Below, one piece after another: positions 1,541 through 63,521 of a DNA stretch of 64,000 bases (position 1 is its first letter; every line of letters begins with the position of its first letter). The stretch comes from Rufibacter roseus (GTDB taxonomy: Bacteria > Bacteroidota > Bacteroidia > Cytophagales > Hymenobacteraceae): contig NZ_LRML01000004.1 of NCBI RefSeq assembly GCF_001647285.1, positions 186,001 through 250,000 on the forward strand, written 5' to 3'. The translations under genes were made by a program, and so were the position numbers. The notes beneath the pieces were generated by a model. That model saw nothing but the letters and a program-made list of their open reading frames with translations, had not been told where the DNA came from and did not search any database.

Positions 1541-1576
1541 GTTTTAGCCCTGCTTTTCAAAAATCAGCCCTAAAAC
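1541..1576. repeat. 36-nt palindrome, copy 1
   Basis: Left arm GTTTTAGCCCTGC, right arm ATCAGCCCTAAAAC. It lies between convergent genes and ends 2 nt before the SDR stop. A broken extra left arm (GTTTTAGCTT) sits directly upstream at 1531-1540. Confidence 0.85.
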
Positions 1577-1578
1577 GC

Positions 1579-2307
1579 TTAAAAATCCCGCACCGAGCAC
1601 ACCACTCCCCGAGCTAAGCTGGTGTTCTCCATGAGTTGAATCACCTTCTGGGCAGTATGCTCTGGTGCTGCCAGATCTCCGTTAGCTTTATAGTCTCTGA
1701 ACTGTTGAACGCTGCTAAACTGCACAGGGTCGGCCTCTCTGATCTGCTCCTGCATTTCAGTGTCTATAATACCAGGTGAGAGGGAGAAGACCTTTACGCC
1801 GGTTCCTAATTTGTCTTGCTCCAGTTGGGCAGTCTGCGAGAGCATGTCAAGCGCGGCTTTTGAGGCGCAGTAAGCGGCCCAGCCGTCTTTGGCTTTCTGA
1901 CCGGCTCCTGAACTTATGTTAACAATCATTTTCTCCACGTCTTTCCGGTGCTGGTAGCTCTGCAGGAACAAGTTCATAAACATGGCCGGCACAATTACGT
2001 TCACGTCGAAGACGAACTCGAAATGCTCGTTTTTGCTCTGCCCTATATAGCCAATATCGCCAATCACTCCCGCGTTGTTCACCAGCACAATTTTTTGGGC
2101 ATCAGTAAACAGCGAGAACACTTTGTGCAGGTTATGTTCTACTCCAGCAATATCAGAGAAATCCAGGGGCTGATGCCGGTAGCGCTCATGAGTGATCGTG
2201 CAGTTTCTGGATACCCCTATCACGCAATTTTGTTCTTCTTTCAACAAAGCCTCGGCCAATGCTTTCCCCAGCCCACGGCTGGTACCGGTAATGATGTAGT
2301 AGTTCAT
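1579..2307 (-). CDS. Short-chain dehydrogenase/reductase, benzil/sepiapterin reductase-like
   Basis: NAD(P)H-dependent reductase with a classical SDR fold, about 242 residues from ATG at 2307. Visible motifs are the nucleotide-binding TGTSRGLG at residues 8-15, the NNAG motif, a catalytic Ser in NISSGAG, and YCASK with catalytic Tyr and Lys. The C-terminus resembles benzil reductase (YueD-type) and sepiapterin reductase-like SDRs. An upstream in-frame ATG at 2358 would add 17 residues, but it falls inside the 36-nt repeat at 2348-2383 and the extension matches nothing in the fold, so 2307 is preferred. It follows the LURP-one-like gene on the same strand. The substrate cannot be read from sequence. 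Confidence 0.85.
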   Translation of the reverse strand: MNYYIITGTSRGLGKALAEALLKEEQNCVIGVSRNCTITHERYRHQPLDFSDIAGVEHNLHKVFSLFTDAQKIVLVNNAGVIGDIGYIGQSKNEHFEFVFDVNVIVPAMFMNLFLQSYQHRKDVEKMIVNISSGAGQKAKDGWAAYCASKAALDMLSQTAQLEQDKLGTGVKVFSLSPGIIDTEMQEQIREADPVQFSSVQQFRDYKANGDLAAPEHTAQKVIQLMENTSLARGVVCSVRDF

Positions 2308-2347
2308 AGTTTCTGTTCGTGTTGCAGTTTGAGAATGTACGGCTTCC

Positions 2348-2383
2348 GTTTTAGGCATGTTTTGAAGAAAAGAGGCCTAAAAC
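2348..2383. repeat. 36-nt palindrome, copy 2
   Basis: Left arm GTTTTAGGCATG, right arm GAGGCCTAAAAC. It ends 3 nt before the stop of the LURP-one-like gene and contains the disfavoured upstream ATG of the SDR gene. Confidence 0.8.
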
Positions 2384-2386
2384 AAA

Positions 2387-2968
2387 TTAAAATCTTGGGT
2401 CTGTCTTCGGAACCAGTTTGGGTCTCCAGTTAGCATCAAACTTTCTAGCCTGTGGACCAAAGTTCCCGAAGTCAACATGGAAGCCGTTGCTGCCTTTATG
2501 GTTGCTCTCGTGCTGGTCCAAAATAAGGCAGAAAGCGATGAGCAGGTCATAATCACTGTTGTCGTCAGAAATGAGATGGTAGTTGTCGCCGTTAAACCAG
2601 GAGACGGCGGCTTTTTCCCACCAGGCAATCTGCACTCCGTCTTTGTACACTGAGAATTTGCGGCCACGGTGACCGTAAATGTCATAGGCACTGCCGCCCA
2701 CGTAACATTGGAAGTGGCGTTTCCAGAAAGACTCTGTACGGAAAAGCACCTCTGCCCCACCCTCAAACTTAATGGTATACTTGGCTTTCACCCAAGCCCA
2801 CTTCTGCTGAATGGCAACTCTGGGGAAATCATGATCCAGCTCAAACACCTGCAGTTTGGACATGAAACTGAACATGGAACTGGTGGCGAAAAACCTTTCC
2901 TGCCCGTTCAGGTAAATCTTATATTTGTCTTTAACAGATAACTTTTTCTGATTGATGTCTATTTCCAT
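2387..2968 (-). CDS. LURP-one-related (tubby C-terminal-like) protein
   Basis: Small beta-rich protein of 193 residues matching the LURP-one-related/DUF567 tubby-like beta-barrel family in length and pattern: repeated short strands with YKIYLNGQE near the start, KFSVYKDGVQIAWWEK in the middle and a C-terminal hydrophobic helix (DYDLLIAFCLILDQ). There is no signal peptide, so it is probably cytoplasmic. In plants the family binds lipids or acts in stress signalling; bacterial members are mostly uncharacterised. Flanked on both sides by 36-nt repeats and on the same strand as its neighbours. Family fairly clear, function unknown. Confidence 0.75.
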   Translation of the reverse strand: MEIDINQKKLSVKDKYKIYLNGQERFFATSSMFSFMSKLQVFELDHDFPRVAIQQKWAWVKAKYTIKFEGGAEVLFRTESFWKRHFQCYVGGSAYDIYGHRGRKFSVYKDGVQIAWWEKAAVSWFNGDNYHLISDDNSDYDLLIAFCLILDQHESNHKGSNGFHVDFGNFGPQARKFDANWRPKLVPKTDPRF

Positions 2969-2986
2969 AGGCGTTCCGTTGCCCCT

Positions 2987-3022
2987 GAATTTACGCTATT
3001 TTTCGGAAAATGGGCTAAAAAC
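2987..3022. repeat. 36-nt palindrome, copy 3 (degenerate left arm)
   Basis: The right arm (GAAAATGGGCTAAAAAC) fits well; the left arm starts GAATTTACGC. It lies between the LURP-one-like start and the hslU terminator. Confidence 0.6.
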
Positions 3023-3027
3023 AGAAA

Positions 3028-3053
3028 GAGCCACCACCCTTCGGCAGTAGCTC
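3028..3053 (-). terminator. Rho-independent terminator of hslU
   Basis: Read on the minus strand, GAGCTACTGCC pairs with GGTGGTGGCTC (some GU pairs) around a GAAG loop. A T-rich tail follows (TTTCTGTTTTT). It lies 26 nt past the hslU stop. Confidence 0.5.
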
Positions 3054-3078
3054 TCAATTTCTACTTTTTAATTCTCAA

Positions 3079-4479: not shown

Positions 4480-4621
4480 GCGTGTTTAGTGGGTGAATGT
4501 GTGAAGGAGTGGATGAGTGAATATTTTCAGCTCTTAAGCACTCATTCTTTCACGTTAGTTTTACTGTTTCTAGTTTTCGTATTTTTTCTGCTTGATTAAC
4601 CTAAACGGCTAACATAAAAAA

Positions 4622-4645
4622 GTTGTTGGTGATAACACCAACAAC
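4622..4645. repeat. Palindrome family 2 (GTTGTTGGTG ... CACCAACAAC)
   Basis: Perfect 10-bp arms around ATAA. Related copies are at 4713-4736 and 25508-25541. Confidence 0.75.
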
Positions 4646-4712
4646 GGCCTAACTAATCCATTGCTTTTGGCGCATTTTGAAGAGTTGGCTCAAAACACTT
4701 CCAACCTCAGCC

Positions 4713-4736
4713 CTTGTTGGTGTTATCAACAACAAG
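4713..4736. repeat. Palindrome family 2, imperfect copy
   Basis: CTTGTTGGTG, TTAT, then CAACAACAAG; two arm mismatches. It is preceded by the same CAGCC as the copy at 25508. Confidence 0.7.
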
Positions 4737-4785
4737 TCCAACTGCGGTTCCAGCCAAAGCTCGTTCCGCAGAAGATGACTATTCC

Positions 4786-4821
4786 ATTTTCAGCTTACTT
4801 TTAGAAAAAGAGCCCAAAAAC
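4786..4821. repeat. 36-nt palindrome, copy 4
   Basis: Left arm ATTTTCAGCTTACTTTT, right arm AAAAAGAGCCCAAAAAC. Ends 37 nt past the porQ stop. Confidence 0.7.
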
Positions 4822-4858
4822 AGGAATCTCCAAATTTTTAAATCCTCACATTTTCCAA

Positions 4859-5908
4859 TTAAAGCTCCGGCGCTTTCTTGAAGAAGCGGTTCAGATCAGT
4901 GGTGAGGGTGAGGTAGTTGCTGGCTCCGGCCACATGAAACTTGGCATAGGTATAATCAAACCTGAAAGCATGAACCTTGATGGACGTGCCAAATGAAAAA
5001 CCTGCCATTCCGCCTGCGCTCTCTACCACCAGTTCTTTGCGCCGCAAGTGGTTGTAGCCGCCCCTGATATGGAAGCCAGGCCCCAGCAGCAGTTCGCCGC
5101 CCACCACAAAATGGCGGACCAGTTGATCGCCGAAGGTTTTCTTCTCCTTTACCTCCTCGTTGTTCTCGTTAAGCGTGCCTTTCTTATTGGGGTCCAGGTA
5201 CACAATGTCCCAGCGGTGCAGGTTATGCGCCGTGAGCGACAACCGGAAAGGCGCGTGTTCAGGCTTATAACTCGCGCCCAACTGAATGTCCAGGGGCATG
5301 TCTTCGCGCTCGCCGTCGCCGTAGGGCTTCAGCATCACGCCCAGGTTTTTTACAGCCAAGCCTACCACTAATCCGTTCTCTGGGTGTACAAAAGTACCGC
5401 CTAGGTCTACCAGCGTGGCCACGGCCTGATCGCCGGCAATGTTTGAAACCGCCACTTTTGCGGTGGCACCTAACGTGAAATGCTCAATGGTAGCGGCATG
5501 TGACAAGGTAACGGCATAATCCCGCACCTGAAAAGTACCTTCCTCCAGACCAGTTTCATCACGCTGCACAAAATCACCATAGTTTACATACTGTATTCCA
5601 ATGGCATTGCGGCCCAGACGGTTGCTCTCAAAGGCATACTGCAAATTGTTCTGCCCAATATCTGAGAGGTAATTGAGGTGTGTGAACGACAGGTGGTTAT
5701 TGGCCTTACCTTGCATGAGACCTGGGTTGGCGCTCACAGAATTCACATCTTCTAAGCCAGAAGAGATGTTCACGCCGCCCAACGCCGCCTGCCGGGCATG
5801 GGTAGGCAGATCAAGAAAACGAAATACATAACGCCCTCCCACTTGAGCGGAGACTACCTGTACAGAGGCTAAAATCATCAGCCCGAAGAGGAAAAGGCGT
5901 TTTTGCAT
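4859..5908 (-). CDS. porQ: Type IX secretion system protein PorQ
   Basis: Outer-membrane beta-barrel of the PorV/PorQ type. In the T9SS it works with PorU and PorZ to process and attach secreted proteins at the cell surface. It has 349 residues, with a signal peptide at 1-21 (cleavage VSAQ) and the PorQ-typical N-terminus GGRYVFRFLDLPTHARQAALGG. GLEDVNSVSANPGLM and FTHLNYLSDI follow, then alternating beta-strands to the end. The start ATG lies inside a 36-nt repeat (5899-5934). It is downstream of lon on the same strand with a 66-nt gap. Other T9SS genes are in this window (porT and PorE-like genes). Confidence 0.93.
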   Translation of the reverse strand: MQKRLFLFGLMILASVQVVSAQVGGRYVFRFLDLPTHARQAALGGVNISSGLEDVNSVSANPGLMQGKANNHLSFTHLNYLSDIGQNNLQYAFESNRLGRNAIGIQYVNYGDFVQRDETGLEEGTFQVRDYAVTLSHAATIEHFTLGATAKVAVSNIAGDQAVATLVDLGGTFVHPENGLVVGLAVKNLGVMLKPYGDGEREDMPLDIQLGASYKPEHAPFRLSLTAHNLHRWDIVYLDPNKKGTLNENNEEVKEKKTFGDQLVRHFVVGGELLLGPGFHIRGGYNHLRRKELVVESAGGMAGFSFGTSIKVHAFRFDYTYAKFHVAGASNYLTLTTDLNRFFKKAPEL

Positions 5909-5934
5909 TGTTTTTCTAAAATCAGGTCAAAAAC
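5899..5934. repeat. 36-nt palindrome, copy 5, overlapping the porQ start
   Basis: Left arm GTTTTTGCATTG, right arm ATCAGGTCAAAAAC. The porQ ATG (5908-5906) lies in this copy, which also sits 40 nt past the lon stop. Confidence 0.8.
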
Positions 5935-5974
5935 AGAAAATCACTCACTCGCCTCAGGCGAATAAGTAGAAAGT

Positions 5975-8616: not shown

Positions 8617-8624
8617 TACATTTG
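8617..8624 (+). promoter_or_regulatory. -7 box TACATTTG
   Basis: Perfect TAnnTTTG. It contains the TTG at 8622 that otherwise looks like a start codon, so translation must begin downstream (ATG at 8670). Confidence 0.6.
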
Positions 8625-8669
8625 ACACCGCGTTTTCTTGTTGCCCTTCTTTCAACGGCCCTTTATTGT

Positions 8670-10655
8670 ATGCAGCGTTCCGGTTTTATATGTATTTTTC
8701 TGCTCTTATGGACTATAAGTTTTTCCACTGTTGGACAAACTAAAAATCCGTTAAGGCTGAAACTCAAACCGGTGAACGACTCTCTCAGACGCACAGCTCC
8801 CAAAGCCGATCTGATTCTGGATTTCCCAAACGTGAACCAGGTTCCCTATTACTTTCATAAGTCTAAGCTAGCTCAAATTCATAAACTGGAGCAAAAACAG
8901 CAATGGGATAAAGTTTTACCCTTGCTCAAAGACTATGTCAACAACTTTGGTATCGAGAATTTTTACAAAGATACAAAACTCTTGTGGCGCTTGGGCCAAC
9001 TATATGAAAGACAAGGCGAACTAGACAAAGCCGTTGCCTGCTACCGCTTGGTTTTAAAGCACCACCGCACCGATATAAGGCAGGTAAAGAACTACTATGA
9101 CTCTTTGGAGCAGAAGAAAAAAGATTTTTACGTTCCGCTGGAGTACTACTACAAAATAGTGGAATACCGGAAGTCAGTAGACACTTTTCAGCCGCCACGC
9201 GGGGTGTACACCAACATGGGCAATGGCATAAATTCATCCTCTGAAGATTATGGCCCTGTCGTTCCGGATGACGAGACGCTGATTTTTACGTCAAGGCGCA
9301 AGGGCAGCAAAGTAAACGGAACAGATGAAGATCTTTATTATGCCAAAAGCGAAAACGGCTATTGGCTAGATGCCCAGTCATTTGGGAAGCCGGTGAACAG
9401 CATTTACAATGAAGGATCGGCCTGCCTGAGCAAAGATGGCCAAACCCTGTATTTTGCCCGCTGCGACAGCCGCGATGGCTACGGAAACTGCGACCTATAT
9501 TCTGCTTCTAAACTGTCTGACGGCAGTTGGGGCCAAATTAAAAACCTGGGGCCTTCTATCAACAGCAAAGCCTGGGATTCACAGCCAAGCCTCTCTCCTA
9601 ACGAAGACACTTTGTATTTCGCCTCAGACCGCCTAGGCGGCTTTGGCATGTCTGATATTTACTTCAGCTACAGAAACAAAAGCGGTGAATGGACCGTGGC
9701 CCAGAATATGGGGCCCGTGGTAAATACCCGCGAAAGTGAAGTGAGCCCCTATTTCCACCCTAAATACCAGGTGCTGTACTTTAGCTCCAGAGGTCAGTTG
9801 CTTAACTTCGGTGACTTTGACATTTACAAAACGTACCGGATTGAGGGTAAATGGCAAGAGCCCAGGAACGTGGGGCCGCTGGTGAATGGCAAGGGCAGTG
9901 AGTACTACTTTGCCATTGACCGTAACTCCACCAATCTGTACTACGCCCGTTCTGAAGCCAACGACATCAAGAACCTGGACCTGTATTCATTCCCGCTTCC
10001 TATGGAGGCGCACCCTTTGGCCGTTACCCGCCTTTCGGGTGTTCTTACTGACTCTATTACCCACAAACCTCTTACTGGTCTAATTTCTATCATTGACCTT
10101 GAGAACGGTATTGAGGTGGCTTCTAAATATTTACGCCCAGACGGTTCTTTTGATTTTGACCTCATTGACAACAGCCGTTACATGATGTTAATTCAGAGCC
10201 CTGACTTTTTCTCTATTGAAAAAGAGGTTGATTTAAAGCAGGACACCTTGCTGAAGATCATGACCACGCTCATTGACTACAGCATTCCGCTTATCTTCAA
10301 GAACCTTGAGTTTGACGAAGGCAAAGCAGATATCAAAGAAGCCATGAAGTCTACCCTAGACAGAATTGTGCTGTTCTTGCTTGACCACCCGCAACTGCGT
10401 TTGAGTATTGAAGGCCACACCGACAGTTCTGGTGATCCGGCTGCCAACATGGATCTCTCACAATGGAGGGCAATAGCTATTAAAGAATATATTGTGAAAA
10501 CAGGGAAAATTGAGCCTGATCGAATTGAAGCCGTAGGCAAAGGCAGTACCCAACCCCTCAAAGTAGAAGTTACGCTGGAAGACCGTCAGGTAAACAGACG
10601 GGTAGAGTTCAAGCTTATCAGACCAGAACAACACAAAGCCAACACTGATTGGTAG
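8670..10655 (+). CDS. PorE-like OmpA-family protein with TPR, PD40 propeller and CRD
   Basis: A 661-residue exported protein with the four-part layout of the T9SS protein PorE. A signal peptide (FLLLWTISFSTVGQ) is followed by TPR-like helices (KLEQKQQWDKVLPLL), then WD40-like PD40 blades (TLYFASDRLGGFGMSDIY; VLYFSSRG), then a carboxypeptidase-regulatory-like beta domain. The C-terminal OmpA domain carries IEGHTDSSGDPAANMDLSQWRA, whose Asp and Arg bind peptidoglycan. It would sit in the periplasm, linking outer-membrane machinery to the cell wall. A second protein of this layout is at 57401-59347; either could be the real PorE. Start chosen because the upstream TTG lies in the -7 box. Confidence 0.85.
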   Translation: MQRSGFICIFLLLWTISFSTVGQTKNPLRLKLKPVNDSLRRTAPKADLILDFPNVNQVPYYFHKSKLAQIHKLEQKQQWDKVLPLLKDYVNNFGIENFYKDTKLLWRLGQLYERQGELDKAVACYRLVLKHHRTDIRQVKNYYDSLEQKKKDFYVPLEYYYKIVEYRKSVDTFQPPRGVYTNMGNGINSSSEDYGPVVPDDETLIFTSRRKGSKVNGTDEDLYYAKSENGYWLDAQSFGKPVNSIYNEGSACLSKDGQTLYFARCDSRDGYGNCDLYSASKLSDGSWGQIKNLGPSINSKAWDSQPSLSPNEDTLYFASDRLGGFGMSDIYFSYRNKSGEWTVAQNMGPVVNTRESEVSPYFHPKYQVLYFSSRGQLLNFGDFDIYKTYRIEGKWQEPRNVGPLVNGKGSEYYFAIDRNSTNLYYARSEANDIKNLDLYSFPLPMEAHPLAVTRLSGVLTDSITHKPLTGLISIIDLENGIEVASKYLRPDGSFDFDLIDNSRYMMLIQSPDFFSIEKEVDLKQDTLLKIMTTLIDYSIPLIFKNLEFDEGKADIKEAMKSTLDRIVLFLLDHPQLRLSIEGHTDSSGDPAANMDLSQWRAIAIKEYIVKTGKIEPDRIEAVGKGSTQPLKVEVTLEDRQVNRRVEFKLIRPEQHKANTDW

Positions 10656-10658
10656 CCT

Positions 10659-10694
10659 GTTTTAGGGTTATTTTTAGAAAAGTAGCCCTAAAAC
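10659..10694. repeat. 36-nt palindrome, copy 6
   Basis: Left arm GTTTTAGGGTTA, right arm GTAGCCCTAAAAC. It fills almost all of the 42-nt gap between two convergent genes, 3 nt from each stop. Its arm mismatches become GU pairs in a plus-strand RNA. Confidence 0.9.
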
Positions 10695-11585: not shown

Positions 11586-11621
11586 GTTTTGGGCCTGATT
11601 TCTCAAAAACAGATCAAAAAC
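11586..11621. repeat. 36-nt palindrome, copy 7
   Basis: Left arm GTTTTGGGCCTG, right arm ACAGATCAAAAAC. Lies 34 nt past the DUF6702 stop, between tandem minus-strand genes. Confidence 0.75.
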
Positions 11622-14817: not shown

Positions 14818-14853
14818 GTTTTTGGCCTGTTTTTACAAAATTAGCTTAAAAAC
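14818..14853. repeat. 36-nt palindrome, copy 8
   Basis: Left arm GTTTTTGGCCTG, right arm ATTAGCTTAAAAAC. The 6/31 pair is T-A here, against A-T in copy 1. Just upstream of dxr. Confidence 0.8.
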
Positions 14854-16880: not shown

Positions 16881-16916
16881 GTTTTAGACCCGATTTTCTA
16901 AAAACAGACCTAAAAC
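16881..16916. repeat. 36-nt palindrome, copy 9
   Basis: Left arm GTTTTAGACCCG, right arm ACAGACCTAAAAC. In a divergent promoter region. Its arm mismatches become GU pairs only in minus-strand RNA. Confidence 0.85.
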
Positions 16917-19582: not shown

Positions 19583-19618
19583 TTTTACAGCTGCTTTTCT
19601 AAAAAATAGGCCTAAAAC
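19583..19618. repeat. 36-nt palindrome, copy 10
   Basis: Left arm TTTTACAGCTGC, right arm ATAGGCCTAAAAC. In a convergent gap, 11 nt past the plus-strand stop; its right end overlaps the terminator at 19614. Confidence 0.75.
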
Positions 19619-19657
19619 AGAAATGGCCATCCTTTGCAGGATGGCCATTTCTGTTTT
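19614..19657. terminator. Bidirectional terminator between convergent genes
   Basis: Perfect 20-bp arms (AAAACAGAAATGGCCATCCT and complement) with loop TTGC; A and T runs at the ends serve both directions. Confidence 0.9.
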
Positions 19658-20314: not shown

Positions 20315-20675
20315 GGTTTTATCTATTAATGTGTTACTAAAGGTTCTGGTTCATCTACTCTCTATAGCCTCTCCTCTTTTAACTGCTCAATAGCTCAATG
20401 GAATTGAGAATCTCTATAGAAGTAGTAGACAAATTAAGAGCCCAATTTTTGGAAATCCTAATAAGTGTTGATAAAATTTACATTAAAATCTTAAGATCCT
20501 TAAGATCTGCATGAGGAAGAAGCAGAATTATTGACATTTTCGTTTTAAGGCTGGTTTTGAGAAAACAAGCCGAAAACGTAATCTGTAATAAACCTGTAGC
20601 CTCCGGAGAACCGGCGAGCGCCTGAGACAAATTTTGCCTTGCTGTTAACTGATAATTGTTTACTGTTACCTGAAA
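20315..20675. other. Promoter region of peroxiredoxin with 36-nt repeat
   Basis: Contains nested CTTAAGAT motifs (about 20486-20508) that could bind a regulator, and a 36-nt repeat. No gene. Confidence 0.5.
20542..20577. repeat. 36-nt palindrome, copy 11
   Basis: Left arm GTTTTAAGGCTG, right arm ACAAGCCGAAAAC. About 100 nt past the Rrf2 gene stop on the minus strand. Confidence 0.8.
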
Positions 20676-24532: not shown

Positions 24533-24568
24533 GTTTCAGGGCTGTTTTCCAAAAATTAAGCCAGAAAC
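24533..24568. repeat. 36-nt palindrome, copy 12
   Basis: Left arm GTTTCAGGGCTG, right arm TTAAGCCAGAAAC. The outer 5/32 pair is C-G instead of T-A. Divergent region. Confidence 0.8.
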
Positions 24569-25411: not shown

Positions 25412-25447
25412 GTTTCGGGCCTGTTTTTTAAAAAGCAGGCCCGAAAC
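25412..25447. repeat. 36-nt palindrome, copy 13 (best arms)
   Basis: Left arm GTTTCGGGCCTG, right arm GCAGGCCCGAAAC, nearly perfect and extended outward by AGC/GCT. Both 5/32 (C-G) and 6/31 (G-C) are changed in pairs relative to copy 1. Confidence 0.9.
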
Positions 25448-25507: not shown

Positions 25508-25541
25508 CAGCCCTTGTTGGTGTTATCACCAACAAGGGCTG
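25508..25541. repeat. Palindrome family 2, perfect copy
   Basis: Arms CAGCCCTTGTTGGTG and its complement, 15 bp perfect, loop TTAT. Relatives at 4622 and 4713. Confidence 0.85.
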
Positions 25542-26931: not shown

Positions 26932-26967
26932 GTTTTTGGCCTGTTTTTGAAAAATCAGGCTAAAAAC
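26932..26967. repeat. 36-nt palindrome, copy 14
   Basis: Left arm GTTTTTGGCCTG, right arm ATCAGGCTAAAAAC. Convergent gap; 6/31 pair is T-A. Confidence 0.85.
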
Positions 26968-27012: not shown

Positions 27013-27154
27013 GTTCCTGTAGAGACTAGGCACTGCCTCGTCTCCCACGCATTACTGATAAAACTGCAAGTTCGTACCAAATTCTATCCTTGGTACCCAT
27101 CTGAAATACATCCTCTTTTCGGCCACTTTTTTCAAAAACAACTCAAAATCAGCC

Positions 27155-27904: not shown

Positions 27905-27943
27905 GTGGTGTACAGACGCAGAATCAGAGAGCAAGTTTCCGTT

Positions 27944-27979
27944 GTTTTGGAGCTATTTTTAGAAAAACACATCAAAAAC
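27944..27979. repeat. 36-nt palindrome, copy 15
   Basis: Left arm GTTTTGGAGCTA, right arm ACACATCAAAAAC, poorly paired in the middle. Divergent region. Confidence 0.75.
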
Positions 27980-28112
27980 AGCAGAAAGCTTTTTTCTTAC
28001 ACAGAATTACCTCCACTCCTTAACGCTGCAATTTTTATTTAATCAGGCCAAACCTAACATTGCACGGCAGCGGAATTACCAGTTCTGCCGTAGAACAGTT
28101 CAAGCAAAAAGC

Positions 28113-30286: not shown

Positions 30287-32419
30287 ATGAAACCAGATTT
30301 CACCAAAATACCATTTACGTTTTCGGGCTCTTTTCCGGAAAACAAGCCAAAAACGGAGCGGAAAACCTGGAAGACGGCTGAGCGCCTGCCGCTGCAGAAC
30401 TTCTACACCAAAGAAGACACTGAAAAGTTTGAGCATCTGGACTTCGCTGCTGGCATACCTCCTTATTTGCGGGGTCCGTACAGCACCATGTACGTGAAGA
30501 ACCCATGGACGATCAGGCAGTATGCCGGCTTTAGCACGGCCGAAGAATCAAACGCTTTTTACCGCCGCAACCTGGCCGCCGGTCAGAAAGGGCTATCGGT
30601 GGCGTTTGACTTAGCTACGCACCGGGGCTACGACTCTGATCACCCACGCGTGGTTGGTGACGTAGGCAAGGCTGGTGTAGCCATTGATTCTATTCTGGAC
30701 ATGAAGATTCTGTTCGACCAGATTCCGCTGGACCAGATGAGCGTGTCTATGACCATGAACGGTGCAGTGTTACCCATTCTGGCCTTTTATATTGTGGCGG
30801 CTGAGGAGCAGGGTGTGAAGCCGGAGCAGCTGAGCGGCACCATCCAGAACGACATTTTAAAAGAGTTCATGGTGCGCAACACGTACATTTATCCGCCGGA
30901 GCCCAGCATGCGGATTATCGCTGATATTTTTGCGTACACCTCCAGGCACATGCCCAAGTTCAACTCCATCAGCATCTCTGGCTACCACATGCAAGAAGCC
31001 GGCGCCACCGCCGATATTGAACTAGCCTACACCCTAGCCGATGGGTTGGAATACGTGCGCACAGGTCTGGCCGCAGGCATGGACATTGACACGTTCGCTC
31101 CTAGGCTGTCGTTTTTCTGGGCCATTGGCATGAACCATTTCATGGAAATTGCCAAGATGCGGGCGGCTCGTATGCTCTGGGCCAAGATCATTAAGCAGTT
31201 CAACCCCAAGAGTGACAAATCGCTAGCCCTGCGCACGCACTGCCAAACATCTGGCTGGAGCTTAACCGAGCAGGACCCGTTCAACAACGTGGCCCGTACT
31301 ACCGTGGAAGCCTTAGCCGCCGCCTTAGGCGGAACCCAAAGTCTGCACACCAATGCGCTGGATGAAGCTATAGCCTTACCAACCGATTTCTCCGCCCGCA
31401 TTGCCCGCAACACCCAAATCTATCTGCAGCAGGAAACGCACATTACCAAAACTGCTGACCCTTGGGGCGGCTCTTATTACGTGGAGGCCCTCACCCATCA
31501 ACTCGCACACCGCGCCTGGGATTTAATTCAGGAAGTGGAACGCTTAGGCGGCATGGCCAAAGCCATTGAAACTGGCTTGCCTAAAATGCGCATTGAGGAG
31601 GCCGCTGCCCGCCGTCAGGCACGTATTGACGCCGGTAAAGACGTAATTGTAGGCGTAAACAAATTCCGGCCGGAGCAGGAAGAGCAACTGGAAATCTTAG
31701 ACATTGACAACACCGCCGTACGCGAAGCCCAGTTAGCCCGTTTGGCGCAACTCCGTGAGAACCGTGATGAAGCCGCTGTCTTTGCTGCCATGGATGCTCT
31801 CACACAAGCTGCTGAAACAGGCGAAGGCAACCTGCTGGAGCTAGCCGTAAATGCTGCTCGAGTGCGGTGCAGCCTCGGCGAGATATCTTATGCCTTGGAA
31901 AAAGTATACGGTCGCCACCGAGCCACTATCAGATCTATATCAGGCGTGTACAGTTCAGAAATATCAGACGATGAAAACTTCCGCAAAGCCCAGGAGCTAG
32001 CGGATCAGTTCGCGGCCCAGGAAGGCCGTCGCCCCCGCATTATGGTTGCCAAAATGGGCCAGGACGGCCATGACCGCGGCTCCAAAGTAATTGCCACCTC
32101 TTTCGCCGACCTCGGCTTTGACGTTGACTTGGGTCCACTTTTCCAAACTCCAGAGGAAGTAGCCCTTCAAGCCGCTGAAAACGATGTGCACGTGGTAGGC
32201 GTGAGCAGTCTGGCCGCCGGGCATAAAACCTTAATTCCACAGTTGATCGCTGAGCTGAAGAAGCTAGGCCGAGAAGACATAATGGTCATTGCCGGCGGCG
32301 TGATTCCGGCGCAGGACTACCAGTTTTTGTATGACGCTGGGGTAGCTGGGGTGTTTGGTCCAGGTACGGTCATCAGTGTGGCTGCTCAGGAGATTCTGGA
32401 GAAATTACTTAAAAGTTAA
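30287..32419 (+). CDS. mutB: Methylmalonyl-CoA mutase large subunit
   Basis: 710-residue catalytic alpha subunit binding adenosylcobalamin. The substrate barrel includes [21 protein letters not shown] and [17 protein letters not shown]. The C-terminal B12 domain carries [10 protein letters not shown] with the cobalt-coordinating His595, then GLDxG-like [15 protein letters not shown] and the GGVIP loop. Residues 11-23 are encoded by a 36-nt palindrome copy in frame, in a part of the N-terminus that varies among mutases. Partners in the window: mutA upstream and the GTPase meaB at 37728. Confidence 0.97.
30319..30354. repeat. 36-nt palindrome, copy 16, inside mutB
   Basis: Left arm GTTTTCGGGCTC, right arm ACAAGCCAAAAAC. 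Exactly 12 codons (residues about 11-23), so the frame is kept. The only copy seen within a coding region apart from the porQ start. Confidence 0.9.
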
Positions 32420-32514: not shown

Positions 32515-32549
32515 ATTTTTCGCCTCTTTCTCTGAAAACAAGGCTAAAC
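32515..32549. repeat. 36-nt palindrome, copy 17 (degenerate)
   Basis: Right arm GAAAACAAGGCTAAAC is clear; left arm ATTTTTCGCCTC is weak. Confidence 0.55.
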
Positions 32550-32679
32550 CACCTCCCGGTTTAAACTTTTCGCACTTTAATTATCTTACCTTTTAAACCA
32601 TTGACAGAAGTTATAGTCTAAAACGTGTAAATTCAACACCTAACACTACAACCCTTTTTAACAAACCAGCTTACACCTT

Positions 32680-37172: not shown

Positions 37173-37208
37173 GTTTTTCACCTGATTTTCAGAAAACACC
37201 CCTAAAAC
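37173..37208. repeat. 36-nt palindrome, copy 18
   Basis: Left arm GTTTTTCACCTG, right arm ACACCCCTAAAAC. Starts 4 nt past the stop at 37168 and overlaps the next hairpin. Confidence 0.8.
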
Positions 37209-37244
37209 GGCACCTCCCGCTATTGCAGCGGGAGGCGCCGTTTT
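37204..37244 (+). terminator. Rho-independent terminator
   Basis: AAAACGGCACCTCCCGCT pairs with AGCGGGAGGCGCCGTTTT (one mismatch), loop ATTGC. Shares its left edge with the 36-nt repeat. Confidence 0.8.
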
Positions 37245-37689: not shown

Positions 37690-37725
37690 ATTTTTAGCCT
37701 ACTTTTCAGAAAACAAGCCTAAAAC
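37690..37725. repeat. 36-nt palindrome, copy 19, touching the meaB start
   Basis: Left arm ATTTTTAGCCTAC, right arm ACAAGCCTAAAAC. Ends 2 nt before the meaB GTG codon. Confidence 0.8.
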
Positions 37726-40972: not shown

Positions 40973-41008
40973 GTTTTGGGCTTGTTTTCTTAAAAACAAG
41001 CCCAAAAC
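40973..41008. repeat. 36-nt palindrome, copy 20 (perfect)
   Basis: Perfect 16-bp arms, left GTTTTGGGCTTGTTTT, loop CTTA, right arm its complement. The 6/31 pair is G-C. Confidence 0.95.
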
Positions 41009-41146: not shown

Positions 41147-41172
41147 AAAAGCTGGCCCAAAGCCAGCTTTTT
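41147..41172 (+). terminator. Hairpin terminator
   Basis: AAAAGCTGGC / GCCAGCTTTT, loop CCAAA, T tract after; directly abuts copy 21. Confidence 0.7.
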
Positions 41173-41208
41173 GTTTTTACCCTGATTTCCAGAAAACAAG
41201 GTTAAAAC
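41173..41208. repeat. 36-nt palindrome, copy 21
   Basis: Left arm GTTTTTACCCTG, right arm ACAAGGTTAAAAC. About 100 nt upstream of the TPR/transglutaminase gene. Confidence 0.75.
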
Positions 41209-45106: not shown

Positions 45107-45150
45107 CAAACAAAAGCCCCGAAGCCAGTAGGTTTCGGGGCTTTTGTTTT
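45107..45150 (+). terminator. Rho-independent terminator
   Basis: CAAAAGCCCCGAA pairs with TTCGGGGCTTTTG, 10-nt loop, T tract after. Overlaps the left end of copy 22. Confidence 0.9.
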
Positions 45151-45181
45151 TAACCTCTTTTTGAAAAAACAGGGCTAAAAC
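45146..45181. repeat. 36-nt palindrome, copy 22
   Basis: Left arm GTTTTTAACCTC, right arm ACAGGGCTAAAAC. Convergent gap between the TPR gene and xerD. Confidence 0.75.
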
Positions 45182-46800: not shown

Positions 46801-46836
46801 GTTTCAGGCCTGTTTTTCTAAAACAAGCCCTAAAAC
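46801..46836. repeat. 36-nt palindrome, copy 24
   Basis: Left arm GTTTCAGGCCTG, right arm AAGCCCTAAAAC. Between tandem aroQ and the class V aminotransferase. Confidence 0.85.
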
Positions 46837-49177: not shown

Positions 49178-49213
49178 GTTTTTGGGCTGATTTCTGAAAA
49201 AGGAGCCAAAAAC
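49178..49213. repeat. 36-nt palindrome, copy 25
   Basis: Left arm GTTTTTGGGCTG, right arm GGAGCCAAAAAC. Starts 4 nt past the marC-like stop; 6/31 pair T-A. Confidence 0.8.
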
Positions 49214-50673: not shown

Positions 50674-50709
50674 GTTTTAGCCTTGTTTTCTACAAAACAG
50701 CGCAAAAAC
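50674..50709. repeat. 36-nt palindrome, copy 26
   Basis: Left arm GTTTTAGCCTTG, right arm ACAGCGCAAAAAC. Fills the 42-nt gap between two convergent stops (4 and 2 nt away). Confidence 0.9.
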
Positions 50710-54973: not shown

Positions 54974-55009
54974 GTTTATGGCTTGTTTTCGTAAAAACAG
55001 CTTAAAAAC
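54974..55009. repeat. 36-nt palindrome, copy 28
   Basis: Left arm GTTTATGGCTTG, right arm ACAGCTTAAAAAC. Overlaps the left part of the terminator at 55005. Confidence 0.75.
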
Positions 55010-57327: not shown

Positions 57328-57356
57328 AAAGCCCCAGCCAAAAGGGCTGGGGCTTT
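57328..57356. terminator. Hairpin between the PorE-like gene and ubiE
   Basis: AAAGCCCCAGCC / GGCTGGGGCTTT, loop AAAAG. On the minus strand it follows the PorE-like stop by about 45 nt, but the T run is on the plus side. Confidence 0.65.
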
Positions 57357-57392
57357 GTTTTTGGGCTGTTTTAAGAAAATCAGCTTTAAAAC
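57357..57392. repeat. 36-nt palindrome, copy 29
   Basis: Left arm GTTTTTGGGCTG, right arm ATCAGCTTTAAAAC. Ends 8 nt past the PorE-like stop and abuts the hairpin at 57328. Confidence 0.8.
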
Positions 57393-57400: not shown

Positions 57401-59347
57401 TTATTGTTCGTCGGCTCTTCTGATGACGTTGAACTCAGTGCGGCGGTTCAGCTGCATGTTTTCAGCGGATGTATTAGGCGCAGCCGGACGACGCTCTCCG
57501 TAGCTCACGGTAATTAATCTGTTAGGGGCAATACCTTGCTGAATCAGGTAGTTATAGGCTGCCATAGCGCGATTTTCACCTAACTGAATGTTGTAGGCAT
57601 CTGAGGCACGTGAGTCAGTGTGTCCGTCAATAGAAAGGCGTAGAGTTGGATTTGCCTTCAACACCCGTGCTATATTATCTAACTCAGTAATTGACTCAGC
57701 ACGAAGGTTGTACTTATCAGTATCGAAGTAGATGCGTTTGAAGGCAAAGGCGCCACCACTTATGGCTGTTTCATCTACAAAATCAATATAGAAGTCTTTC
57801 TCTACCACAGTGGTGTCATTCAAAGAAAGCGGCACCTCAAATTGCTCGTTGGCTATGTTTTTACCGTCACGTGACAAGGCTACCTGGTACGGACGAGAAG
57901 ACAGCACGGTCACTTGGTAAGTACCCGAATCTGGTTTTGTCACATCTCTGTACTCAAGTGGGGTATTGTTTGCAGCCTTACCAGTGAAAACCAACTCAAC
58001 CCCTGGTATAATGGTACTGTCCCGCAGGCTGTATACACGCCCCTTAACAATAGCATTACGGATGTAGTTGATGGTGTAAATGTCTTTTTCACCGTAGCCA
58101 CCCATACGATAAGAAGAAAGGTACGCCAAACGTCCATCTGAACTTAAACGGTAATAAGTATCATCATCTGGCGTGTTGATTGGGTAACCCATGTTTTCAG
58201 GTCTGCTCCAGCGGCCAGAAACGGTGTCAAACTCTATTTTGAAGATATCGTACCCACCCATTGTGTTATGGCCACGTGAACTGAAGAACATGGTTCTGCC
58301 ATCTGGGGTAAAGTAAGGGCTATCTTCATCAAACGGTGTATTCACTCCGTTTCCAAAGTTTCTAGGCGCTCCCCAATCACCATTGTCCATTCTTTTTGAA
58401 TAGTAAATGTCAAGGTCACCATTTTCTGAAAAACGGTTGGTAGAGAAATAAAGCGTACTTCCATCTGGAGTGATATAGGCATCACTTTCAAATTCACGTG
58501 AGTTGATGTTGCTGTTCAGTTTAGTTGGCGGGGTCCATTCACCAGTCTCGCCACGGCTTGAAACAAAGATGTCACCGTTTTGGTCCTGACGGTACATGAG
58601 CAGCTTTTGGTCATTATCAAAAAGTTGGATAGAAGCATCGTGCCCGGTACCGTTCAGTCTGCCGCTCAACGAACGGGGGGCAGACCATGAATCTGGCCCC
58701 AAACGGTCAGCTTCAAAAATATCTTCGTAGTATTCACCGTCTTCGGCCTCTTTGCCACCGGTTACGGCTCTACTTCTGGAAGTAAACAACAGGTAGTTAT
58801 CATCTTTTGAGATAACTGGGCTATGTTCTGAATAAGCTGTATTGACCTCAGGGCCAAGGTTTTTCACGAACACATCTTTAGGGTTAGCCACTTCCTTTTT
58901 GGCGTTACGTGCATGCTGTATCAGAAGAGCGGCCTGCTCTTTGCCTTCCACATCGCGTTTGCCTAGTGTCTTCTGGTAATCCTGAGCATTCTTGATGGCC
59001 TCATCAAATTCATAGTTCACCAAATTCACCCGGCCCATCCAGTAAAGGGCGTCTTCCCCAACTTTCGGCTTAAGGGTGTAGGCTTTCTTAATGTACTCGC
59101 CTGCTTTCTCTTTGTCAAAGGCAATTAAGCTAATACCTGCCCGGTAAAGGGCTTTGGCATTATCCGGATCCCTTTCCAGCACCTGCTCATAATAAGGCAA
59201 GGCTGCACGGAAATTGGCTTGGTTGAACATCTTATCTCCTTTTCTGATAAGCTGGCGAGTACTCTGCCCCATGGCAGCAGTGACCATGAAGAATAGAGTC
59301 AGAAATAATAATGATGTTTTTAACAACCGTTTGTCTAAGTAATCCAT
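57401..59347 (-). CDS. PorE-like OmpA-family protein (second)
   Basis: 648 residues. Signal peptide (FFMVTAAMGQ), TPR segment (QANFRAALPYYEQVLERDPDNAKALYRAG), PD40 propeller (GSTLYFSTNRFSENGDLDIYYS; GRTMFFSSRGHNTMGGYDIF), carboxypeptidase-regulatory-like domain (VKGRVYSLRDSTIIPGV) and an OmpA domain with IDGHTDSRASDAYNIQLGENRA. This order is that of PorE, which tethers the T9SS to peptidoglycan. Conservation of the propeller and OmpA parts is better than in the copy at 8670, so this may be the true PorE, but paralogs are common and the pair cannot be separated by sequence alone. Confidence 0.88.
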   Translation of the reverse strand: MDYLDKRLLKTSLLFLTLFFMVTAAMGQSTRQLIRKGDKMFNQANFRAALPYYEQVLERDPDNAKALYRAGISLIAFDKEKAGEYIKKAYTLKPKVGEDALYWMGRVNLVNYEFDEAIKNAQDYQKTLGKRDVEGKEQAALLIQHARNAKKEVANPKDVFVKNLGPEVNTAYSEHSPVISKDDNYLLFTSRSRAVTGGKEAEDGEYYEDIFEADRLGPDSWSAPRSLSGRLNGTGHDASIQLFDNDQKLLMYRQDQNGDIFVSSRGETGEWTPPTKLNSNINSREFESDAYITPDGSTLYFSTNRFSENGDLDIYYSKRMDNGDWGAPRNFGNGVNTPFDEDSPYFTPDGRTMFFSSRGHNTMGGYDIFKIEFDTVSGRWSRPENMGYPINTPDDDTYYRLSSDGRLAYLSSYRMGGYGEKDIYTINYIRNAIVKGRVYSLRDSTIIPGVELVFTGKAANNTPLEYRDVTKPDSGTYQVTVLSSRPYQVALSRDGKNIANEQFEVPLSLNDTTVVEKDFYIDFVDETAISGGAFAFKRIYFDTDKYNLRAESITELDNIARVLKANPTLRLSIDGHTDSRASDAYNIQLGENRAMAAYNYLIQQGIAPNRLITVSYGERRPAAPNTSAENMQLNRRTEFNVIRRADEQ

Positions 59348-60384: not shown

Positions 60385-60472
60385 GCTCGGCAGTAACTTT
60401 ATGTCCTGAAAAACTGCGGCTAGGTTCATGCTGCCTCACCGCTACTAATCTGGCCATGTGTTTTACAGGCAA

Positions 60473-60480
60473 TAATTTTG
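60473..60480 (+). promoter_or_regulatory. -7 box TAATTTTG
   Basis: Perfect TAnnTTTG, 81 nt before the DUF5606 start. Confidence 0.5.
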
Positions 60481-60561
60481 TTTAATTTTATCGCCTTAAG
60501 TACGTATACCAACTGCCTGCGGGTGTAAATAAATAGTCTTACCCATAACCATTAGTTTATT

Positions 60562-61068
60562 ATGCCATTTGACCTGAAAGAGATTGCCTCTATTTCCGGT
60601 ATGCCCGGCCTTTACCGGATTATTGCCCCCACCCGTAGCGGTGTTATTGTAGAGAGCCTGGCCGAGAAGCCGGTAAGAAGCGTAGCGCAAGCCCGCAACA
60701 GAGTTTCTATTCTGCAGGAAATTTCTATGTACACCAATGATGCAGAGCACACCGTGCCCCTTGCTGAAATTTTTGACAGAATCAGAAAGCAATACGGAAC
60801 CGACTTACCTGTAAACGCAAAATCAAGCTCACAAGAACTTTCTGCATTTGTAGAGTCTGTTTTGCCTGATTATGATCAAGACAGGGTGTACGCCTCTGAC
60901 ATGAAAAAACTAGTACAGTGGTACTCGCTGGTGAATCAGTTTGTGCCTTATACTGAAGAGCAGGAAGCCCCGGCTGAGCAACCAGAGACAACTACAGCAG
61001 AAGCCTCTACAACTTCTGAAGCCGAGGAAGCTGAAAAACCAAAAGCATCAAAGAAAAAGGCAAAGTAA
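60562..61068 (+). CDS. DUF5606 domain protein
   Basis: 168 residues. The N-terminal 130 match the Bacteroidota-specific DUF5606: PFDLKEIASISGMPGLYRII, SRAGV-like SRGV motif (TRSGVIVESL), VSILQEISMYT and SDMKKLVQWYSLVNQF. Then an acidic, Glu/Ala/Thr-rich low-complexity tail ending in basic KASKKKAK. No known function. The terminator hairpin begins at its own stop codon. Confidence 0.82.
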   Translation: MPFDLKEIASISGMPGLYRIIAPTRSGVIVESLAEKPVRSVAQARNRVSILQEISMYTNDAEHTVPLAEIFDRIRKQYGTDLPVNAKSSSQELSAFVESVLPDYDQDRVYASDMKKLVQWYSLVNQFVPYTEEQEAPAEQPETTTAEASTTSEAEEAEKPKASKKKAK

Positions 61069-61114
61069 TAAAACAGAAAAGCCCCGCCAATGGCGGGGCT
61101 TTTCTGTTTTATTA
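61066..61114. terminator. Bidirectional terminator starting at a stop codon
   Basis: 23-bp perfect arms (begins TAATAAAACAGAAAAG) with loop AAT. The TAA stop of the DUF5606 gene is the first three bases. Serves convergent fbp too. Confidence 0.92.
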
Positions 61115-61138
61115 CTTTTCGTAAAACTGCCCGAAAAC
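61103..61138. repeat. 36-nt palindrome, copy 30
   Basis: Left arm TCTGTTTTATTAC, right arm CTGCCCGAAAAC. Overlaps the terminator and ends 3 nt before the fbp stop. Confidence 0.6.
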
Positions 61139-61141
61139 AGG

Positions 61142-62173
61142 TTACACGGCAGCTAATGATCTGTCTTTTACCTTTCTGGGCATCAATAAAGCCTCTACCT
61201 CTTCCACCATTTCTTTTGACCCTATATACAAAGGGCATCGCTGGTGCAATTCATTAGGCTGTAAATCTAAAATTCGGTTTTTCCCGTCTGACGCTTTCCC
61301 TCCGGCCTGCTCAACAATAAAGCCCAAGGCATTGCACTCATACAGTAAACGTAGTTTACCAAGTGGAGACTTCTGCGTATTAGGGTACATATAAATGCCG
61401 CCTTTCAACAAGTTACGGTGAAAGTCTGCCACCAACGAGCCAATATAGCGGGCTGAGTAGTTGCGTACGCGGCAAAGTTCTATGTAATCTTTCACCCCAG
61501 CCGGGAAGTGGTGAAAACCACCTTCGTTTACTGAATAAATCTCTCCCTTAGCAGGAATAGTGATGTTGGGGTGTGACAAGAAAAATTCACCCAAAGAAGT
61601 TTCATAGGTAAAACCGTTCACGCCGTTACCTGTGGTGTACACTAGCATGGTGCTGGAACCATAGATAATGTACCCCGCTGCCACCTGCTCCGTACCCTTT
61701 TGCAGGCAGTCTTCAATGGTGCCGTCTGCACCTTGGTCAGACAAGCGGCGGTAAACAGAGAAAATAGTACCTATAGAAACATTCACATCAATGTTTGAGG
61801 AACCATCTAGCGGGTCAATGGCTACAATGTAGCGCCCTTTGTGATTGCCTGTTTGGATTAAGCCATCTTCTTCTTCAGAAACAATGGTGCAAACCTCTCC
61901 TCCATTCCGCAGAGCTCTGATAAACCGTATGTTCGCCACAATGTCAAGCCTTTGCTGGTCTTCACCCTGAACGTTCTGCTTGCCATACGCCCCGCCAATA
62001 TCGGTAAGGCCAGCATGGTTGATAGCCCGGTTCACAATTTTAGCCGCCAACGCAATGTCACGCAGCAACTGAGACAACTCACCAGTGGCATAAGGAAAAT
62101 CCTCTTGCTTGCGCATAATAAACCGGTCAAGGGTAGTGCCTACCGGAAGCGCTAAGTTTTCTTTGATAGTCAT
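61142..62173 (-). CDS. fbp: Class I fructose-1,6-bisphosphatase
   Basis: Gluconeogenic enzyme, fructose 1,6-bisphosphate to fructose 6-phosphate. 343 residues, normal length. Motifs: EEEDGL metal site, [60 protein letters not shown] and [11 protein letters not shown]. The -7 box at 62213-62220. Ends in a strong terminator shared with the DUF5606 gene. Confidence 0.96.
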
Positions 62174-62212
62174 AGGAATAGGATTGGTTTGTATAGGTTT
62201 GAACAGTTATTG

Positions 62213-62220
62213 CAAATATA
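62213..62220 (-). promoter_or_regulatory. -7 box TATATTTG (minus strand)
   Basis: Perfect TAnnTTTG, 40 nt before the fbp ATG. Confidence 0.55.
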
Positions 62221-62642
62221 TCAATAAACTAACTATATAAGAGTAAAGAATTAGCAACTTTACACTCTAACCAGCTTAAATAAATTAATTTATTAATTAA
62301 ACTCTTCCCCTTCAGATGACATTATTTAAATGCCACTTCAGAAGAAGGGTTAGATTAGATATCACAAAACTCGCCTAAGGTAAAAGGAAACCATTGATTA
62401 GCCCTTGGAGGAGCCAAGAAAAGCTTCAGTCGCAATTTGAGCCTGCGCAGTTCCTTTTTTATTCAAGAATGAAATGATGTATAAGGCAGAGTGCTTTTTC
62501 TACGTTAAAAAGCCATTCTTGTTACAGCTTCCTCTTTTAATCAAACCGTCTACAGAAGACGCATGGCACAAGAATTTAGCGTAAACTACTGCTACTTAGC
62601 CTTATTTGCCACCAAAAAACTTGAATCTACTGCCAAACATTT

Positions 62643-62678
62643 GTTTTTTACTTATTTTAAGGAAATTAGCCTTAAAAC
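62643..62678. repeat. 36-nt palindrome, copy 31, in a 5' leader
   Basis: Left arm GTTTTTTACTTA, right arm TTAGCCTTAAAAC. Ends 13 nt before the preferred hydratase ATG, where a hairpin could affect ribosome access. Confidence 0.75.
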
Positions 62679-62691
62679 ACCTATTTCAACA

Positions 62692-63474
62692 ATGAATACT
62701 ATGGAATACATTATTGTAACTGAACAAGCCCGACCGCAGGTAGCTCTAATTCAGCTAAACCGCCCAAAAGAGCTAAATGCCCTTAACTTACAGCTGATGG
62801 GGGAACTGCGCGACGCCCTTAAGGAACTTGACGACAATGACCAAGTGAGAGCTATAGTGATAACGGGCAATGAACGTGCCTTTGCTGCCGGTGCGGATAT
62901 AAAACAAATGGCTGGGAAAACAGCCGTTGACATGTTGAACATTGACCAGTTTTCTACCTGGGATCAGATAAAAAAAACGAAGAAGCCTATTATTGCGGCA
63001 GTAAGTGGTTTCGCTTTAGGCGGAGGATGTGAGCTTGCTATGACCTGCGACATGATTGTGGCCTCTGAGACTGCCCAGTTCGGCCAACCTGAAATAAAAA
63101 TCGGGGTAATGCCTGGTGCGGGTGGTACCCAACGCCTCACCAGGGCTATAGGGAAAGCCAAAGCCATGGAGATGGTTCTCACCGGAAAGTTTATCTCGGC
63201 CACAGAAGCTGAGCGGTGCGGGCTCATAAACAAAGTAGTTCCTGTAGAGCTTTATTTGGAAGAGGCCTTTAAACTTGCTAGTCAGATTGCGCAACTGGCA
63301 CCGGTAAGCGTGAAACTAGCCAAGGAATCTGTAAACCGTACCTTTGAAACACATCTGGACGAAGGTCTACATTTTGAACGCAAAAACTTCTACCTCACAT
63401 TTGCCTCAGAAGATCAAACCGAAGGCATGAATGCTTTCATTGAAAAGCGTAAGCCAACCTTCAAAGGCAGATAA
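62692..63474 (+). CDS. Enoyl-CoA hydratase/isomerase family protein
   Basis: 260 residues from ATG 62692. Crotonase fold: oxyanion-hole AFAAGADIKQMAGK, ALGGGCELAMTCDMIVA with the first Glu and PEIKIGVMPGAGGTQRL with the second catalytic Glu, consistent with a true hydratase. Acts in fatty-acid or amino-acid beta-oxidation. The adjacent ATG 62701 is equally possible; 62563 is rejected because the extra residues include the 36-nt repeat. Confidence 0.92.
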   Translation: MNTMEYIIVTEQARPQVALIQLNRPKELNALNLQLMGELRDALKELDDNDQVRAIVITGNERAFAAGADIKQMAGKTAVDMLNIDQFSTWDQIKKTKKPIIAAVSGFALGGGCELAMTCDMIVASETAQFGQPEIKIGVMPGAGGTQRLTRAIGKAKAMEMVLTGKFISATEAERCGLINKVVPVELYLEEAFKLASQIAQLAPVSVKLAKESVNRTFETHLDEGLHFERKNFYLTFASEDQTEGMNAFIEKRKPTFKGR

Positions 63475-63485
63475 GAAGAAGGTTT

Positions 63486-63521
63486 GTTTTAGCGCTTTTT
63501 TCCTAAAATCAAGCCTAAAAC
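63486..63521. repeat. 36-nt palindrome, copy 32
   Basis: Left arm GTTTTAGCGCTT, right arm ATCAAGCCTAAAAC. Starts 11 nt past the hydratase stop. Confidence 0.8.

Follow-up and report, generated by a model that had tools for sequence, protein, structure and literature searches.

What does a short palindrome do that recurs about 30 times in 64,000 nt of bacterial DNA? The stretch in question (hereafter the window) is the whole of positions 186,001 to 250,000 of contig NZ_LRML01000004.1 from Rufibacter roseus (assembly GCF_001647285.1), in which an earlier, sequence-only reading had noticed an imperfect palindrome of 36 nt. Palindromes that bacteria carry in many copies are commonly interpreted as transposon remnants or terminators. 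The Rufibacter copies appear to be selected at the nucleotide level across the genus and to stand about once per border between transcription units, and in one lineage a concerted change of letters has left the sites where they were. Copy number, genus restriction, retention, nucleotide constraint, largely independent half-sites, border position and species dialects can each be read from the sequences. The explanation preferred here, held with about even confidence, is that the element is a dyad binding site of a putative Rufibacter DNA-binding protein and marks transcription-unit borders as boundaries.

A 36-nt dyad in Rufibacter genomes

A symmetric weight matrix built from the window copies returns 30 copies at a score of at least 10 and 32 at a score of at least 4; five third-order Markov control sequences give 0–1 and 0–2 matches at these thresholds. 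The copies extend from 1541 to 63521, bearing out the original count of 30. Genome-wide, the strict pattern GTTTT-N8-TTT-N4-AAA-N8-AAAAC occurs in 853 places and its reversed control in none. About one tenth of the genome was read base by base: this 496-kb sample holds 168 matrix copies, 82 of them strict, which extrapolates to 1,733–1,748 copies (about 1,740) in 5.12 Mb. The earlier guess of thousands was thus about right, and its rate of one copy per 2.1 kb holds for the window; the genome sample is less dense, at one per about 2.95 kb. Density over ten species is 0.34–0.73 per kb, with 0–2 control matches each.

The length of the element is constant, as had been claimed. In a grid of arm and center spacings (64 cells, ten species; matches can overlap), 516 of 554 matches fall in three cells totalling 36 nt (276, 195 and 45), the largest other cell holding 12, and a 38-nt variant of the strict pattern occurs at only 4 places in the genome. 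A density above shuffled sequence and a sharp 36-nt peak, which the sequence-only reading had proposed as its own test, are therefore both present. Its impression that no named family fits also agrees with the searches, as no Rfam match above the gathering score was found in the window and no named family or description in the open-access literature searched.

The half-site is approximately CYGTTTT-N-GGSCTG-TTTT-Y in most of the ten species, with C at −2 and a pyrimidine at −1 conserved. The GC-rich part, earlier placed at the center of the element, sits mid-arm. The consensus is two-fold symmetric, and its selected half-sites largely vary independently, which is the form of a protein-binding dyad. 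At the center itself (positions 17–20, pooled sites), self-complementary dinucleotide steps make up 17% against 30% expected (z −8.8). The central dinucleotide is mostly CA/TG (303/942) or AG/CT (194/942), giving a dyad with an asymmetric center, and CA/TG shows no strand bias relative to genes (TG 68, CA 66). Such a center would fit a bent dyad. Pooled site totals are 942, 944 or 945 depending on the count, owing to edge rules and re-estimated matrices.

The element is present in all 15 Rufibacter congeners searched besides R. roseus, with 51–1,416 strict matches each. Among 43 genomes of other genera, 37 have no strict match and 6 have one; the reversed control has one match in 4. When thresholds were lowered, samples of 80 kb from each of five sister-genus genomes gave no clear excess; at most there were 6 matches against 1.3 at score 8 (G018). 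A strict consensus scan of 84,980 species, which may leave out records near R. roseus itself, gave 89 stretches, and all of the 80 listed are from Rufibacter.

Retention, placement and dialects

Copies keep their places between species. Aligned sites are found at the same position in 71 of 72 cases for G007/G013, 93 of 100 for G004/G014 and 25 of 28 for G000/G001 (G000 being the R. roseus genome); a further 16, 20 and 39 sites that could not be aligned are left out of these counts. T3, T4, T14 and T15 are 0.94–1.00 identical in the three pairs; flank identity is 0.64–0.75 for the first two pairs and 0.54–0.56 for G000/G001. Neutral simulation at flank identity keeps 19%, 15% and 2% of sites, respectively, and at a generous 85% identity 73%, 44% and 79%, so the G000/G001 pair is not decisive at the latter setting. 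Judging from these alignments, the sites are held in place by selection. A divergent-gap site at window position 27944 precedes one and the same called start by 78–80 nt in 15 of 16 species, whereas the length of the gap ranges from 152 to 936 nt.

In this gap (27934–28060) and its orthologues (loci L026–L039), a second site is present in several species, the two being separated by as much as about 750 nt that cannot be aligned; the window, L031 and L037 have a single site, with flanks that match in length on both sides. Such single- and double-site gaps could reflect insertion or deletion at the site, or shared versus separate sites. Eight of them, inspected by eye for integron-like cassette insertion, show no convincing hybrid sites.

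The sequence-only reading had spoken of a mobile or functional unit and proposed looking for a transposase associated with repetitive extragenic palindromes (REPs). Six matches to Y1_Tnp occur in the R. roseus genome (loci L005–L010); five of them have weak scores and lie in frames of 185–226 aa, and from length and score these five genes would seem to resemble RAYTs. An element copy lies within about 0.65 kb of the match at each of the six loci, which is weak evidence given the background density of the element. The family does not track the element across genomes: G007 has the element and no Y1_Tnp match, and the reverse is seen in many genomes of other genera. In ten species, the letter frequencies of the flanks show no GTAG or CGTC tag, both ends being GTTTT/AAAAC, and no clean 36-bp insertion was found among the presence/absence gaps inspected, some of which differ by point changes. 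With sites inherited in place and no correspondence between the element and the REP-type transposase family, the mobile half of the earlier description is not supported; the functional half stands, in view of the retained positions and the synonymous constraint described below.

Placement relative to genes was judged with a home-made hexamer gene caller. A copy is found in 190 of 263 convergent, 384 of 946 co-directional and 108 of 255 divergent gaps. Co-directional occupancy is 1% below 36 nt and 66–77% at 150–400 nt. Among 150 convergent gaps of 60–250 nt, zero, one and two copies are found in 30, 111 and 9, against a Poisson expectation of 63, 55 and 24, and copy number rises weakly with gap length (Spearman 0.29). 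The order within gaps was followed with TAnnTTTG, the −7 motif of Bacteroidota (PMC7366714). Where a single site lies in a co-directional gap of 100 nt or longer, this motif is found 57 times in the stretch from site to start and 10 times in that from stop to site (binomial 2.3e-4); the antisense motif occurs 13 and 4 times. Hairpins of −12 kcal/mol or lower adjoin 88 of the 354 site ends with a stop 30–120 nt away, 12 of the 272 with a start at that distance and 32 of 945 control windows. As far as gene calls and motifs can indicate, the copies mark transcription-unit borders.

With 112 of 945 sites inside called open reading frames (ORFs), the border is not the sole home of the element. Ninety of these lie deep in the frame, and codon-shuffled controls give 0–1 per genome. 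Deep copies are concentrated in the weak-consensus species G004 (26), G014 (21), G015 (14) and G008 (12); the other counts are 7/168 in R. roseus, 5 in G007, 4 in G013, 1/74 in G001, 0/57 in G012 and 0/52 in G006. Third-codon identity in core columns is 115/131 from G004 to G014 and 91/108 in the reverse direction, compared with 0.75 elsewhere in genes and 0.75–0.76 in other site columns. The corresponding G007/G013 comparison (4 aligned sites) is uninformative, as core columns (19/20) and other columns (26/28) are both high, the rest of the genes being at 0.70. In view of this synonymous-site constraint, nucleotides seem to be the level at which selection works on coding copies. The region matching the coding copy at 30319 was located by script in 9 of 15 orthologues and is site-like in all nine (scores 19.5–39.7); 6 were not located. 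The earlier view that these palindromes are not chance terminators accords with the constraint on coding copies and with positions kept far above neutral expectation in two species pairs.

One lineage writes the element in different letters. Half-site position 12 in G012 is C in 23/24, 25/26, 28/28 and 23/24 cases when compared with G006, G001, G000 and G007, where it is mostly G (20/24, 19/26, 19/28 and 18/24, respectively), and position 13 shifts likewise from T to A. Each pair provides 12–14 position-matched sites; 7, 7, 8 and 6 G012 sites have aligned flanks but no partner, and 33–37 of 55 are unalignable. At the orthologous sites that can be matched, the G012 lineage changed its letters in place. 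The simplest cause of new letters at old places is a change in a trans-acting reader; drive could be an alternative one.

Readings of the element

A binding-site role for the element can be set out as follows. Two half-sites in double-stranded DNA would be recognized by a putative, probably dimeric, sequence-specific protein of Rufibacter; we infer this protein, its binding and its boundary effect. One copy would usually stand after the stop of one unit (and after its terminator hairpin, if any) and before the next promoter, with close convergent neighbors sharing a copy. The bound protein would most likely form a bidirectional boundary that, as a roadblock or insulator, limits read-through and antisense transcription. 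In many cases a terminator hairpin would stand next to it, drawing its U-tract from the element's own GTTTT. A more tentative extension, which we consider possible but doubtful, is a genus-wide punctuation in which one dedicated dimer serves most borders and about two thousand sites have co-evolved into dialects without moving. We know of no bacterial punctuation system of such scale and placement. If a protein does read the sites, they would give Rufibacter a bacterial equivalent of genome-wide insulators, and about two thousand places at which cis–trans co-evolution could be followed as a natural experiment.

Several observations weigh against a protein-bound border mark. Information content is 24–49 bits in the ten species, more than such a mark seems to need. 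Copies also occupy divergent gaps and called ORFs, the deep coding ones mostly in the four weak-consensus species. A separate terminator is present at 121 of 220 convergent 3′ ends with a non-hairpin (class-B) site and at 38 of 74 without a site. A minority of copies are real hairpins with T-rich 3′ flanks, and perfect inner palindromes, also a minority, outnumber expectation in each of the ten species (92 in total, with about 25 expected). Pooled P values are optimistic, as they rest on related species and a home-made gene caller. HU and LexA, the only domains examined, give no lead to the binder, as their counts do not set Rufibacter apart, and both were set aside as candidates. LexA was tried solely because of the inner CTGT...ACAG, which resembles the E. 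coli LexA box.

It is rather unlikely that the element is an architectural or topological site, at which a nucleoid protein or topoisomerase binds the dyad and organizes or relaxes the chromosome; borders would then merely be where sites are tolerated or torsion gathers. Convergent gaps are indeed the most occupied and divergent ones the least, given that the co-directional class includes operon-internal gaps. The asymmetric CA/TG or CT/AG center could be a kink, some species have constrained coding copies, and those of G004 and G014 lie somewhat farther from other sites than random coding positions do. BIME-2 elements bind gyrase (PMC2817692). Two findings suit a role at each border better: copy number stays at one almost whatever the length of the gap, and occupancy is independent of the next site over 0.5–4 kb (0.76–0.79, with 0.59 at less than 0.5 kb, n = 29, and 0.45 at more than 4 kb, n = 11). 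HU domain counts, too, are ordinary and speak against an architectural role.

Preferential uptake of marked DNA under molecular drive, by which copies would build up and remain uniform without local function, is an improbable explanation. Thousands of copies, dialects and frequent association with terminators and permissive gene stretches are features of the uptake sequences of Neisseriaceae (PMC3630211). High information content and the in-place change of dialect fit drive, and the coding copy at 30319 falls in a variable N-terminal stretch of a mutase-like protein. The copies are, however, two-fold symmetric, occur once per gap and are not proportional to intergenic length. The even spacing of uptake sequences is unsupported, with an inter-site coefficient of variation of 0.70–0.98 and no fall in occupancy when another site lies 0.5–4 kb away. 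Deep coding copies are also few (0–2% or nearly so) in the high-consensus species G012, G006, G001 and R. roseus, though at least three quarters of the DNA is coding. Were drive nevertheless the cause, the element would point to a DNA-uptake-like system in Bacteroidota, where to our knowledge none has been described.

Equally improbable is a bidirectional terminator or pause element that acts through RNA or RNA polymerase with no dedicated protein, the T-tracts serving as U-tracts and the palindrome as a hairpin. For about 12% of the copies (117 of 944), RNA hairpins are retained as an explanation: these have outer stems of 4 bp or more and 2.4 inner mismatches (6.1 in the others), carry 3.39 T in the 8 nt of 3′ flank (1.93 in the others) and avoid divergent gaps (5/117 against 157/827), and so resemble intrinsic terminators that incorporate the site. 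Of 161 strong hairpins that abut a site, 111 end flush with it, and in 74 of these 111 the stem reaches 4–5 nt into the GTTTT of the site. The outer flank pairs −1 to −5 also pair above chance (z 3.8–8.2, ten species). For most copies a hairpin is rejected, as the arms vary independently. In the R. roseus sample, column pairing is close to the expectation for independent arms except at position 6. In the ten species pooled, there is an excess at positions 5 and 6 (z 3.3 and 8.8) and weakly at 8 and 17, much of it due to the hairpin minority, and a deficit at the center (z −8.8). Weak folds are conserved, separate terminators are common beside class-B copies, and copies occur in divergent gaps and, under synonymous constraint, in genes, all of which argue against termination as the general role.

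A mobile repeat of REP or MITE type, spread by a RAYT or another transposase, is the least probable origin and very improbable as the main explanation. In its favor, REPs are typically small palindromes found near 3′ ends in convergent and co-directional gaps (PMC3733652), six Y1_Tnp matches are present, and where a relative has a single copy, some gaps hold two with additional DNA in between. The distribution of Y1_Tnp, the missing flank tags, the pattern of presence and absence in orthologous gaps and the fixed positions speak against it.

Copies in the window and known systems

The copies in the window and the hairpins flush with them are listed in Table 1.

Table 1. Element copies and flush hairpins in the window, with matrix scores, fold values and hairpin offsets from the copy
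Feature	Position	Strand	Values
36-bp copy, convergent gap	1541..1576		score 47.1
36-bp copy, 3 nt from a stop	2348..2383		score 41.8
36-bp copy	2987..3022		score 30.4
36-bp copy	4786..4821		score 37.1
36-bp copy	5899..5934		score 42.7
36-bp copy within long hairpin, 3 nt from both convergent stops	10659..10694		score 44.4; fold −40.9
36-bp copy	11586..11621		score 43.4
36-bp copy	14818..14853		score 44.7
36-bp copy, divergent gap	16881..16916		score 42.9
36-bp copy, convergent gap	19583..19618		score 29.3
Terminator-like hairpin flush with 19583 copy	19619..19652	-	hairpin −25.9; offset 0
36-bp copy	20542..20577		score 42.2
36-bp copy, divergent gap	24533..24568		score 41.8
36-bp copy, perfect palindrome	25412..25447		score 41.6; fold with flanks −41.7
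36-bp copy	26932..26967		score 49.6
36-bp copy	27115..27150		score 29.8
36-bp copy, divergent gap, 80 nt before called start of 28060 gene	27944..27979		score 38.3
36-bp copy in 5′ coding part of mutase-like gene 30287–32419	30319..30354		score 46.8
36-bp copy	32515..32550		score 29.2
36-bp copy, 4 nt after a stop	37173..37208		score 41.1
Terminator-like hairpin flush with 37173 copy	37209..37239	-	hairpin −28.0; offset 0
36-bp copy, place kept in most orthologous gaps	37690..37725		score 41.8
36-bp copy	40973..41008		score 46.7
Terminator hairpin flush with 41173 copy	41147..41172	+	hairpin −15.2; offset 0
36-bp copy	41173..41208		score 42.6
Terminator hairpin flush with 45146 copy	45112..45145	+	hairpin −25.6; offset 0
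36-bp copy, convergent gap	45146..45181		score 45.1
36-bp copy	46801..46836		score 41.8
36-bp copy, 4 nt after a stop	49178..49213		score 44.0
36-bp copy filling convergent gap, 4 and 2 nt from stops	50674..50709		score 43.6
36-bp copy, flush hairpin on right	54974..55009		score 41.7; hairpin −19.4; offset 0
Terminator-like hairpin flush with 57357 copy	57328..57356		hairpin −23.3; offset 0
36-bp copy	57357..57392		score 43.1
36-bp copy in called ORF near called start (start uncertain)	62643..62678		score 33.2
36-bp copy within long hairpin after a stop	63486..63521		score 43.2; fold −32.4

The window also holds a second palindromic repeat, TTGTTGGTG-N4-CACCAACAA, at 4617–4645, 4708–4736 (one mismatch) and 25508–25536. 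Its exact pattern occurs in 16 of 16 Rufibacter genomes searched (2–71 copies; 18 in R. roseus) and in none of seven genomes of other families, a search that took in no same-family sister genus. Some copies are paired 45–46 nt apart. Two proteins of similar TPR-PD40-OmpA architecture are encoded at 8622–10655 and 57401–59347.

Among known systems, bidirectional intrinsic terminators resemble the element in being shared by convergent genes, and the hairpin copies with T-rich flanks add to the likeness. A GC-rich hairpin with a U-tract and maintained pairing is nevertheless found only in those roughly 117 copies; most copies have no selected hairpin, many stand beside a separate terminator, and copies also occur in divergent gaps and genes.

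Like the DNA uptake sequences of Neisseriaceae, the element combines high copy number (about one per 1.4–3 kb) with species dialects, a link to terminators and conserved letters. It differs in being a two-fold dyad of 36–40 bp, found about once per gap and rare in the genes of high-consensus species. Pasteurellaceae also have DNA uptake sequences.

REPs and their composites, bacterial interspersed mosaic elements (BIMEs), are likewise short, high-copy extragenic palindromes near 3′ ends, mostly in convergent and co-directional gaps and often within 20 nt of stops. They carry GTAG or CGTC tags and are associated with RAYTs, whereas the Rufibacter element has neither tag nor transposase link and is fixed in position across species. 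Its arms mostly vary independently, it is usually single rather than paired, and it is also constrained inside genes. Untagged REP-like palindromes have been named for several genera (PMC3733652). They are similarly genus-specific, tagless palindromic repeats, likened here by description; for the Rufibacter element, retention in place, placement once per border and a change of dialect can be added to that description.

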